Source: Flagellimonas sp. MMG031 (GTDB taxonomy: Bacteria; Bacteroidota; Bacteroidia; Flavobacteriales; Flavobacteriaceae). From it: a DNA stretch of 64,000 bases. Made by a program: the position numbers and the translations under genes. The notes beneath the pieces are model-generated. The model was not told the DNA's origin. It made no database searches and saw nothing but the letters and a program-made list of their open reading frames with translations. The stretch spans positions 560,501-624,500 of the forward strand of contig NZ_CP157804.1 of the NCBI RefSeq assembly GCF_040112705.1, in the 5' to 3' direction. The number at the start of each line of letters is the position of its first letter. The first letter of the stretch is position 1. Shown here piece by piece: positions 21,098 to 40,923 of the stretch.

Positions 21098-24000
21098 TTG
21101 ACAAGAATAACTGAACATAGCATAGAAGATTTTGCCATCAAATTGTTGGAGCATTTGGGCTATGAATACATCTATGCACCAAGTATTGCCCATGATGGCG
21201 AAAATCCCGAGCGGAGTTCATACGAAGAAATCCTACTCACCCATCGCATGGCAGAAGCCGTGCGAAGAATTAATCCAACCGTGCCATCTGCTGCACAGGA
21301 AGAAGCCATCAAAGAAATTCAGCGGATCCATTCGCCAGAGTTACTGACCAATAATGAGAGCTTTCATCGCTTATTGACCGAAGGAATCAAAGTCAGCTAT
21401 CAAAAAGATGGACAACAAAGAGGAGATTTGGTGTGGTTAATCGACTTTAACACACCCGAAAACAACGACTTCATAGTTGCCAACCAGTTTACGGTGGTAG
21501 AAGATGGCGTAAACAAACGCCCTGATGTCATTCTCTTTGTCAATGGAATTCCTTTGGTGGTCATCGAACTCAAAAATGCAGCAGATGAAAACGCCACAAT
21601 CAAATCTGCTTTTCGTCAAATAGAAACCTACAAAGCGGTCATTCCAAGTCTGTTTACATACAATGCGTTCACGATTATTTCAGACGGACTGGAAGCCAGA
21701 GCAGGAACTCTTTCATCGGGCATGAGCCGTTTTATGGCGTGGAAATCGGCAGACGGCAAAGAAGAAGCTTCGCACTTGGTAAGCCAAATGGAAACGCTCA
21801 TCAATGGCATGCTCAACAAAGAAACCTTGCTGGATTTGGTTCGGCATTTCATCGTTTTTGAAAAGTCCAAAAAAGAAGATGCCAAAACAGGCGTTACCAC
21901 CATTTCAACCGTCAAAAAATTAGCCGCCTACCATCAATACTATGCCGTAAACCGAGCGGTGGAATCTGCTATCAGAGCTACGGGGCACAATTCCCCTCCT
22001 GTGGAGGGGTGGTCGCAGACCGGGGTGGTTCCTAATCCCAGAATCAAAGAAATTAGCAGAGCCACTAAAAACTACTTCTCACTTCCTTATAACCCAAAAC
22101 TAAAGGAACGAGCACGTGAACTTCGAAAAGCAGGAAACCTTCCAGAGGTCCTTTTCTGGAATCAAGTAAAAAATAAACAATTTAAAGGTTTTGATTTTGA
22201 CCGTCAGAAAATCATTGGCAACTATATCGTTGATTTCTATTGTGCTAATTGTGGAGTTGTAGTCGAAATTGATGGCAGTAGTCATGATAATAAAGTGGAA
22301 TACGATGCTGAGCGAGATGCTTATTTAGAGTCACTCGGATTGACGGTTATTCATATACCAGTGAATGATGTCATGAAGCAAATGTCAAGTGTAATGAATA
22401 TGCTTTATGACCACCCAGCTCTGTCGAACACAAACAAACCACCCCGCCTTTCAGGCACCCCTCCACAGGAGGGGAATTTTGTGATGGAATCGCCTGAAAG
22501 CTATGGTGTGGCAGGTGTAAAATCACAACCCAAAGGTGACCGAAAAGGTGGTGTAGTTTGGCATACCCAAGGAAGTGGTAAATCCCTTTCCATGGTGTTT
22601 TTCACGGGTAAAATCGTATTGGCCTTGGACAATCCTACCGTTGTTGTCATCACCGACCGTAACGATTTGGACGACCAACTCTTTGATACGTTTGCTTCTT
22701 CCACACAGCTATTGCGTCAAGAACCGAAGCAGATTGAAAACCGAAACGACCTAAAGGAAAAACTGAAAGTGGCTTCTGGCGGTGTGATTTTTACCACCAT
22801 TCAAAAATTCTCGCCCGAAGAAGGCAATGTGTATGAAACGCTTTCGGAACGGGAAAACATAGTGGTAATCGCTGATGAAGCCCACCGAACACAATACGGT
22901 TTCAAAGCCAAAACCGTGGATGACAAAGACGAGCATGGCAATGTGATTGGTAAGAAAACTGTGTACGGTTTTGCCAAGTACATGCGTGATGCTTTGCCTA
23001 ATGCCACATACATCGGTTTTACAGGAACACCTATTGAAAGCACCGATGTAAACACCCCTGCCGTTTTTGGAAACTATATTGATGTCTATGACATTGCCCA
23101 AGCAGTTGAAGACGGTGCGACCGTTCGCATTTATTACGAAAGCCGATTGGCGAAAGTGAACCTGAGCGAAGAAGGCAAAAAGCTGGTTGAGGAACTGGAT
23201 GATGAGTTGGACGGTGAAGAACTCACCGAAACCCAAAAAGCAAAAGCCAAATGGACACAATTGGAAGCCTTAATCGGCAGTGAAAACCGCATTAAGAATG
23301 TAGCTAACGACATCATTCAGCATTTTGGTCAACGCCAGGAAGTATTTGAAGGTAAAGGAATGATTGTGGCCATGTCAAGAAGAATTGCCGCTGATTTGTA
23401 TGAGGAAATCATCAAACTAAAGCCTGAATGGCATTCAGATGATTTGGACAAAGGTGTGATTAAAGTCGTAATGACTTCATCATCTTCGGATGGGCCAAAA
23501 ATCGCCAAACACCACACCACCAAACAACAAAGAAGAACGCTTGCCGACCGAATGAAAGACCCAGACGATGAATTGAAACTGGTAATTGTTAGGGATATGT
23601 GGCTCACAGGCTTTGATGCACCGAGTATGCACACGCTTTACATCGACAAACCGATGAAAGGCCACAACCTGATGCAAGCCATTGCACGGGTAAACCGAGT
23701 GTACAAAGACAAGCCAGGTGGCTTGGTGGTTGATTATTTGGGTATTGCCTCTGATTTGAAGAAAGCACTTTCGTTCTATTCCGATGCAGGTGGAAAAGGC
23801 GACCCAACCATTGCTCAAGCACAGGCGGTTGAATTGATGCTCGAAAAACTGGAAGTGGTTTCGCAGATGTACAGCGGTTTTCCGTATGAAGATTATTTCC
23901 AAGCGGAAACAGGACAAAAACTTTCCATGATACTTGCTGCCGAAGAACACATTCTCGGACTCGAAGACGGTAAGAAACGATACATCAATGAAGTAACTGC

Positions 24001-39989: not shown

Positions 39990-40014
39990 CCCTCACGAAT
40001 GGAAGAATCTTGAA

Positions 40015-40041
40015 GGGCGGCCATTGTGCCGCCCTTTTTTT
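40015..40041 (+). terminator. Intrinsic terminator after the M1 peptidase gene
   Basis: Stem GGGCGGC (40015-40021) / GCCGCCC (40028-40034) with loop CATTGT and seven T residues. Confidence 0.92.
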
Positions 40042-40048
40042 ATCTATC

Positions 40049-40129
40049 ATGAACAACTGTCCCCTTGAGGGGACCTTAGGGGTGTTACATGAACAATTAT
40101 TCTTGATATATTTGGGTTCGTTCGTATGA
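40049..40129 (+). CDS. Probable remnant of the original rnpA start, now a 26-codon leader ORF
   Basis: ATG AAC AAC at 40049 opens a 26-codon frame that passes through the left end of the DUF559 element and stops at TGA 40127-40129, which overlaps the ATG of the DUF559-rnpA gene (40126) as ATGA. Removing the inserted DNA joins ATGAACAA to TTCCTTTCCC, giving MNNSFPKKEKL, a plausible native RnpA start. So ribosomes loading at the old start could terminate and restart into the fusion gene. Inferred, not proven; homologues would settle it. Confidence 0.5.
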   Translation: MNNCPLEGTLGVLHEQLFLIYLGSFV

Positions 40130-40546
40130 AAAACAAGATTATTCCATATAATCCCAAGTTAAAAGAATTTGCAAGGCAACTGCGTAAAAACAGTACGCTC
40201 TCCGAGGTCCTTCTTTGGGAAAAACTAAAGCAACGTTCAATGGGGGTTCAATTTCATCGACAGGTTCCTTTACTTGAATATATTGTTGATTTTTATTGCC
40301 ACGAATTACAGCTTGCCATAGAAATTGACGGGGTTTCGCATGATTTCAAATATGACAAGGATCAACAAAGAGAACATCAACTAGAAAAAGTCGGCGTACA
40401 TTTGCTCAGGTTGCAGGATCAGGAAGTTAAAAGCAATATGTTCAGTGTTTTGATGAGCATAAAAGAAACGATAGCTCAAATGCAACACAAAGACCCTAAT
40501 TTGAATGCAGAAAAAACACCCCTAAAGTCCCCTCAAGGGGACAATT
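40055..40546 (+). mobile_element. Hairpin-ended DUF559 nuclease element inserted at the start of rnpA
   Basis: The ends are 32-bp inverted repeats matching at 30 positions: left 40055-40086 (AACTGTCCCCTTGAGGGGAC, then CTTAGGGGTGTT) and right 40515-40546. Each has an outer hairpin GTCCCCT-TG-AGGGGAC followed inward by GGGGTGTT. This is the plan of the hsdR element ends, with a different stem sequence and no inner hairpin. Between these outer limits it is 492 bp; exact borders are uncertain because ACAA occurs on both sides (ATGA-ACAA before, ACAA-TTCC after), a possible 4-bp target duplication. It carries its own ATG (40126) and a complete DUF559 domain. Confidence 0.8.
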
Positions 40547-40923
40547 CCTTTCCCAAAAAGGAGAAGCTCACCCATAAAACCATTTTTGAAAAGCTTTTTT
40601 CCGAAGGAAAAACACTGAAGGAGTTTCCCGTCAAACTGATATACCTCAACACCTCTTTTCCTGATGCTGTCCCGGTGAAGGTGGCCGTGGTGGCACCAAA
40701 GAAAAAATTCAAAAAAGCCGTGGAACGCAACCGTATCAAACGCCTGTTACGTGAGGCGTACAGGCTCAACAAGCCCCTCATTTTTAACAACATTGAGGGA
40801 AATTATGCGTTCATATTTTTATACCTTGGCAAGAAAGACCCCGATTTTAGGCAGGTCGAAATTGCTATGAAAACGCTGTTAAAGGCATTTGTAAACAAAG
40901 AATTCCATGAAAAGATTGATTAA
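40126..40923 (+). CDS. rnpA: DUF559 nuclease-domain / ribonuclease P protein (RnpA) fusion
   Basis: 265 residues. Residues 1-128 are a DUF559 (Vsr-like PD-(D/E)XK) domain: IIPYNPKLKEFARQLRK, EYIVDFYC with D55, LAIEIDGVSHD with E66 and D68. Residues 129-139 (TPLKSPQGDN) are encoded by the right repeat. From residue 140 (NSFPKKEKLTHKTIFEKLF) the protein is a complete RnpA with the RNR motif at 201 (AVERNRIKRLLREAYRL). RnpA is essential for tRNA 5' maturation, so it must tolerate the extension or be made separately; the only nearby in-frame alternative start is TTG 40501. It overlaps the next gene by 17 bp. Confidence 0.93.
   Translation: MKNKIIPYNPKLKEFARQLRKNSTLSEVLLWEKLKQRSMGVQFHRQVPLLEYIVDFYCHELQLAIEIDGVSHDFKYDKDQQREHQLEKVGVHLLRLQDQEVKSNMFSVLMSIKETIAQMQHKDPNLNAEKTPLKSPQGDNSFPKKEKLTHKTIFEKLFSEGKTLKEFPVKLIYLNTSFPDAVPVKVAVVAPKKKFKKAVERNRIKRLLREAYRLNKPLIFNNIEGNYAFIFLYLGKKDPDFRQVEIAMKTLLKAFVNKEFHEKID

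Follow-up and report, generated by a model that had tools for sequence, protein, structure and literature searches.

How can a nuclease-coding insert occupy the start of rnpA while the host gene survives, and how is such an insert expressed? The locus lies in a 64,000-nucleotide stretch of Flagellimonas sp. MMG031 (contig NZ_CP157804.1), hereafter the window, and an earlier note made from the sequence alone had proposed that a DUF559 element sits at the start of rnpA, is fused to RnpA and does not kill the host gene. These claims hold, as a single open reading frame of 265 codons contains both Pfam domains, and rnpA, present as the sole copy, remains in an open frame. The features of the locus, in positions of the window, are as follows.

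40012..40037, + strand: hairpin with a T tail after the upstream gene, resembling an intrinsic terminator (consensus match only)
40049..40129, + strand: leader frame of 26 codons, whose TGA overlaps the DUF559 ATG; ATG-led in only 3 of 9 intact copies
40055..40086, + strand: left inverted-repeat arm, containing the palindrome TGTCCCCTTGAGGGGAC
40107..40114, + strand: putative promoter-like -7 box TATATTTG within the element (Bacteroidota-type consensus)
40126..40923, + strand: DUF559-RnpA fusion ORF, 265 codons (open frame and Pfam domains)
40156..40473, + strand: DUF559 / Vsr-like nuclease domain, residues 11-116 (Pfam match; PDB 3hrl and, weakly, 3r3p)
40480..40482, + strand: element-borne in-frame ATG; RnpA of decayed relatives likely starts at its counterpart
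40515..40546, + strand: right inverted-repeat arm, reading TPLKSPQGDN in frame
40543..40923, + strand: RnpA portion, the only rnpA in the genome (Pfam match; single match per genome)

In the fused frame DUF559 comes first (PF04480, residues 11-116, E 4.9e-28, 97.6 bits against a Pfam cut-off of 20.6), followed by the right hairpin and then by RnpA (PF00825, residues 142-254, E 1.5e-18, 67.2 bits against a cut-off of 22.3). The insert of ~490 bp, nuclease domain included, is bounded by the two arms, each of 32 nt and 94% complementary to each other; RNA folding gives z-scores of -2.6 for the right hairpin and -0.6 for the left one. Since each of the 71 genus genomes has exactly one rnpA match, the fused gene is the sole rnpA. 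This gene survives with a DUF559 element joined to it in frame, and the open frame suggests that the fusion is made as one protein.

The earlier note further held that the old rnpA ATG at 40049 drives a leader of 26 codons and that the ATGA overlap couples translation of the element to it. The reading of the letters was accurate: the 26 codons opened by ATG 40049 end in a TGA that shares letters with ATG 40126. The same ATG-led leader with its overlap is found in Muricauda sp. ARW1Y1 (G041, listed as the window's species) and Flagellimonas marinaquae JCM11811 (G019), which with the window are the three closest of the nine intact genus copies and the only ones to have it, and in G053 a shorter TTG-led frame of 11 codons makes the same overlap with the DUF559 start. 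Against the proposed coupling, no such frame exists in the other five intact copies (G012, G026, G069, G044 and G027), so that leader-coupled expression was set aside as a general rule; the DUF559 start was taken as TTG or GTG in these five and in G053. The box TATATTTG, which we take to match the -7 promoter consensus of Bacteroidota, lies between the leader ATG and the DUF559 ATG and starts 19 nt ahead of the latter; six of the nine intact copies have TATATTT[GA] upstream of the DUF559 start, at a distance of 19-21 nt. Because this box lies downstream of ATG 40049 and the terminator-like hairpin ends at 40037, a dozen nucleotides before it, the leader may go untranscribed. Transcription would then start inside the element, between the left hairpin and DUF559, and the leader is probably incidental. 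Removal of the element does leave ATG AAC AAT TCC TTT CCC, as the earlier note had read, but these codons could not be confirmed as an old rnpA start: in the comparison with sister species that it had suggested, rnpA begins with MNNSFPKK in none of the 70 genus genomes, nor does DNA coding for MNNSFP occur at the rnpA start in any of them. We regard coupling to an old rnpA start as very improbable. Capture of rnpA by in-frame fusion is supported, and capture by leader coupling is not. The element-borne ATG at 40480 had been overlooked; a matching ATG is located at -63/-66 from the RnpA core in 6 of the 9 intact copies, and we predict that a separate RnpA is made from it in the window strain.

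The history of the insertion was followed at the rnpA loci of 70 of the 71 genus genomes, including the window and leaving out the locus of G061 (L144). The intact DUF559-rnpA fusion is present in 9 of the 70. These nine copies served to build a profile of each element end. At E<=0.01 the right end is detected in 18, the left end in 6 and either end in 21 of the remaining 61 genomes, against none of 120 control stretches; the recurrence of the element at the same place in rnpA of relatives exceeds chance. In all 18 genomes with a right-end scrap the scrap is in frame with RnpA; its ATG precedes the RnpA core by 66-78 nt and is the sole in-frame ATG in 13 of them. This comparison shows decay leaving the right end of the element in frame as the predicted N-terminus of RnpA, and the scrap ATG likely serves as the RnpA start in the decayed relatives. 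Three further rnpA-fusion copies (G015, G056 and G068) are frameshifted.

In the tree of downstream DNA, a clade of 24 genomes (SH-aLRT 90) combines 6 intact, 15 scrap and 3 doubtful rnpA alleles, and the intact copies of G044, G027 and G053 stand amid relatives labelled as having no intact copy. The tree labels (REM, weak and PART) had been assigned by eye before the end-profile test, which at E<=0.01 backed 15 of 15 REM, 3 of 3 PART and 0 of 3 weak labels. Also by eye, G007, G048 and G011 seem to use the start of DUF559 itself for RnpA, G035 seems to use an ATG of the left end, and G036 and G058 a GTG of the right end; the left-end profile matches G007 (E 5e-7) and G048 (E 0.006), reaches only E 0.35 in G011, and has no match in G035, G036 and G058. 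A pre-insertion allele was not identified among the genus rnpA loci compared. A family-wide scan of 199 genomes, with RnpA in 196, yielded two further long rnpA frames among the matches listed (G088 and G263), in which no DUF559 sequence was seen by eye.

Two other arrangements were observed near rnpA. In G033 rnpA has a right-end scrap, and a separate piece of rnpA-type DUF559 (L141) is found ~1.5 kb upstream of the gene; the element looks split by intervening DNA. At L053, L047 and L058 a lone palindrome lies ~50 nt upstream of rnpA with no DUF559 (weak profile E 0.012-1.6), possibly a leftover of element loss.

The relative age of the element and its flanks was assessed in pairs of genomes. 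Between the two species G026 and G012 the element has 2 differences in 410 positions and the flanks have 378 in 2630 (14%; Fisher 8e-23). The identical tract extends outside the element by 54 bp on the left and 31 bp on the right, and over ~20 kb just 2 of 94 comparison windows exceed 99% identity, both on the element, the next reaching 96% and the median being 86.8%. In total the rnpA element is younger than its flanks in 6 of 14 pairs, the others being G000/G019, G041/G019, G000/G041, G026/G069 and G012/G069; among the remaining eight, six show no difference and two have a more diverged element (p 0.005 and 0.027). For L151 (strain TY007) element and flanks do not differ significantly in any of four comparisons. 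Of the elements in other genes, described below, those at leuS are younger than their flanks in 6 of 10 pairs and those at recG in 4 of 15 (with one pair in reverse, p 0.023); at hsdR the element is younger in one of three pairs and more diverged in two, at metH it is more diverged in the single pair, and at hemD none of three pairs shows a difference. These patterns indicate mostly vertical descent with occasional transfer between species. They argue strongly for spread to the same rnpA site in another species for one pair and moderately for the others, the strong evidence at rnpA depending mainly on G026/G012, and low divergence of the element can partly reflect constraint.

The rnpA element is one of a larger set. 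The window genome has five PF04480 matches, which comprise the rnpA element, in-frame elements in recG and hsdR, one apparently intergenic copy and a partial match that is Vsr-like by eye. The element of hsdR (type I restriction R subunit; window ~21989-22480) is in frame and open through both palindromic ends, and the recG insert (L001, G000:C1:2639599-2639913) is in frame between the DEAD and Helicase_C domains, with a similar insert in five other genus genomes. Relatives carry in-frame inserts in metH (L078, L091) and leuS (L087, L095, L107, L109, L114) and N-terminal fusions to hemD (L098, L108, L115), the host genes having been confirmed by Pfam on one copy each. The genus elements have terminal palindromes and a frame open through their ends. 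In the genus tree of 76 DUF559 copies (rnpA 9, recG 6, leuS 5, hemD 3, hsdR 3, metH 2, and 48 others in two groups), which excludes L140-L143 (proteins that are short, broken or of another kind), the three frameshifted rnpA copies and weak, mostly partial matches, the copies group strictly by host gene, each host gene forming one clade (SH-aLRT 96-100), and no jumps between host loci are seen.

Beyond the genus, a protein search retrieved 427 relatives; of the 120 listed, 51 combine PF04480 with PF00825. Among the matches listed, these two-domain proteins come from Flagellimonas, Muricauda/Allomuricauda, Croceitalea, Arenibacter and Maribacter and, where named, are mostly annotated just as 'ribonuclease P protein component'. 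A contig search gave 112 relatives of the rnpA-type DUF559. Of the best 79 loci of these 112, which were kept, 12 are fused to rnpA, 16 carry an N-terminal DUF559 fusion to a threonine-dehydratase-like gene (PALP; L158 and 15 other loci, 13 of the 16 in Winogradskyella), one is fused to cutC (L153), and in 50 no such fusion was seen. A palindrome of the CCCCT..AGGGG type is found at both ends in 54 of these 79 loci, at the left end only in 9, at the right end only in 14 and at neither end in 2. The cross-genus tree, which omits L154, L185, L194, L206 and L207, is weakly resolved; the rnpA copies are scattered in it, and a single rnpA clade is not rejected (AU 0.786, in an analysis that also omits L209, L215 and L222).

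These observations bear on the possibility that the insert is palindromic and MITE-like and is mobilised in trans by a transposase, DUF559 being its passenger and the in-frame copies survivors of random insertion, as in the Rickettsia palindromic elements. In favour are the palindromes near both ends in 54 of the best 79 loci, the in-frame reading through of the element ends and the many occupied host genes. Against it, the copies of the genus separate by host gene into distinct DUF559 clades, no jump between loci is seen, and DUF559 is under purifying selection, as reported next. We consider this explanation improbable.

Selection on DUF559 was estimated in 12 pairs. Four informative pairs gave dN/dS values of 0.23, 0.07, 0.10 and 0.03, two near-saturated pairs gave 0.09 and 0.12, and five pairs were not computable; G026 and G012 differ in DUF559 by one synonymous change and no other. 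Low values were also obtained between lineages at dS 0.5-0.85, and RnpA itself has 0.07-0.19 in ten computable pairs. These ratios indicate that DUF559 is kept by purifying selection. Forty fused proteins were aligned, comprising that of the window and 39 of the 51 listed ones with two domains. E66 and H72 never vary among them, and E27, D55 and D68 hardly do; we take these five to be the catalytic residues. A DUF559 profile compared with PDB finds 3hrl (E 2e-16) and, weakly, 3r3p, a 'Mobile intron protein' (E 0.065) that is presumably the catalytic domain of I-Bth0305I. Nuclease activity of the DUF559 part is predicted.

Constraint of this kind could also be read as domestication, with DUF559 kept intact for a host function tied to RNase P such as regulation or quality control. 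The low dN/dS values, including those between the more distant lineages, the conservation of the five residues and the occurrence of DUF559-rnpA fusions in several genera of Flavobacteriaceae are all compatible with such a function. The intact copy is missing from 61 of the 70 genus genomes, however, domains of this family are also joined to unrelated genes, and the element shared by G026 and G012 is younger than its flanks. Domestication seems to us unlikely.

The explanation that we favour, and consider fairly probable, is that of a gene-dedicated, palindrome-flanked DUF559 element of homing type, with no recognisable intron or intein, which resides in frame at the start of rnpA and passes through decay and re-invasion. 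The element would be translated as the N-terminal part of RnpA, and in-frame translation would account for its being tolerated there. Its expression probably relies on a promoter that it carries itself, located after the left hairpin and before DUF559. Most likely it cuts rnpA alleles that are free of the element or bear a scrap of it and is then copied in; this mode of spread is suggested by elements much younger than their flanks, by the nuclease family and by the homing cycle as described in an excerpt of PMC3229294. Deletion or frameshift would then lead to decay, with the right end staying behind as an N-terminal extension of RnpA and the element-borne ATG likely becoming its start, after which re-invasion could follow. 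A broader proposal, to which we give roughly even chances, is that palindrome-flanked DUF559 nucleases make up a family of homing elements that do without self-splicing. Each lineage would be tied to one conserved gene and be maintained through fusion in frame with the host protein (rnpA, recG, leuS, metH, hsdR and hemD, and outside the genus the threonine-dehydratase-like gene and cutC), and its decay would repeatedly supply the new start codon and N-terminus of the host gene.

Other identities were searched for and set aside. For a self-splicing intron, Rfam at E<=1 returned three chance-level matches (E 0.3-0.56), none of them an intron; for an intein, Pfam scans of the rnpA fusion and seven other fusions contained no intein or Hint domain. 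Plasmids (36 matching records) and phages (2) were also considered as vehicles; identity stays under 60% in every record. The PADLOC matches are weak and partial (DpdF, mREase_II and PDC-S69). A literature search with sparse coverage of subscription journals found, among the matches listed, neither DUF559 fused to rnpA nor palindrome-flanked DUF559 elements.

The nuclease seems to occupy an essential tRNA-processing gene as a translated part of its product, and its remains resemble the present start of that gene. If true, this is another way to inhabit essential genes, and one that generates N-terminal extensions. Annotators should also take note, as both domains occur in 51 of the 120 listed relatives and those that are named mostly bear an RnpA name alone.

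The usual account of homing endonucleases in conserved genes, according to an excerpt of PMC3943268, has them within an intron or intein that splices out, and a DUF559 gene has been assigned to the EDxHD homing endonuclease family in the excerpted text of PMC9403480. The present element resembles EDxHD / Vsr-like homing endonucleases such as I-Bth0305I in a weak profile similarity (E 0.065) and in its presence at a fixed site with decay. It differs from them in that the rnpA element contains no Rfam intron (E<=1) or Pfam intein and reads on in the host ORF. The cycle of invasion, decay and re-invasion is shared with introns and inteins as excerpts of PMC3229294 present it; there inteins are said to require precise deletion, whereas decay of DUF559 leaves scraps that resemble the host N-terminus. 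Stand-alone DUF559 or Vsr-like nucleases (3hrl, and the Caulobacter Vsr-like protein in an excerpt of PMC12907096) have the same domain but are independent genes. Rickettsia palindromic elements are likewise palindromic in-frame insertions in host ORFs; in the portion of PMC10969869 describing them they are ~150 bp long and encode a short peptide, whereas the rnpA element has ~490 bp and a nuclease domain, and each DUF559 subfamily is restricted to one gene within the genus. We classify the DUF559 elements as a candidate homing-type variant whose palindromic ends resemble those of the Rickettsia elements, rather than as a proven EDxHD homing endonuclease.
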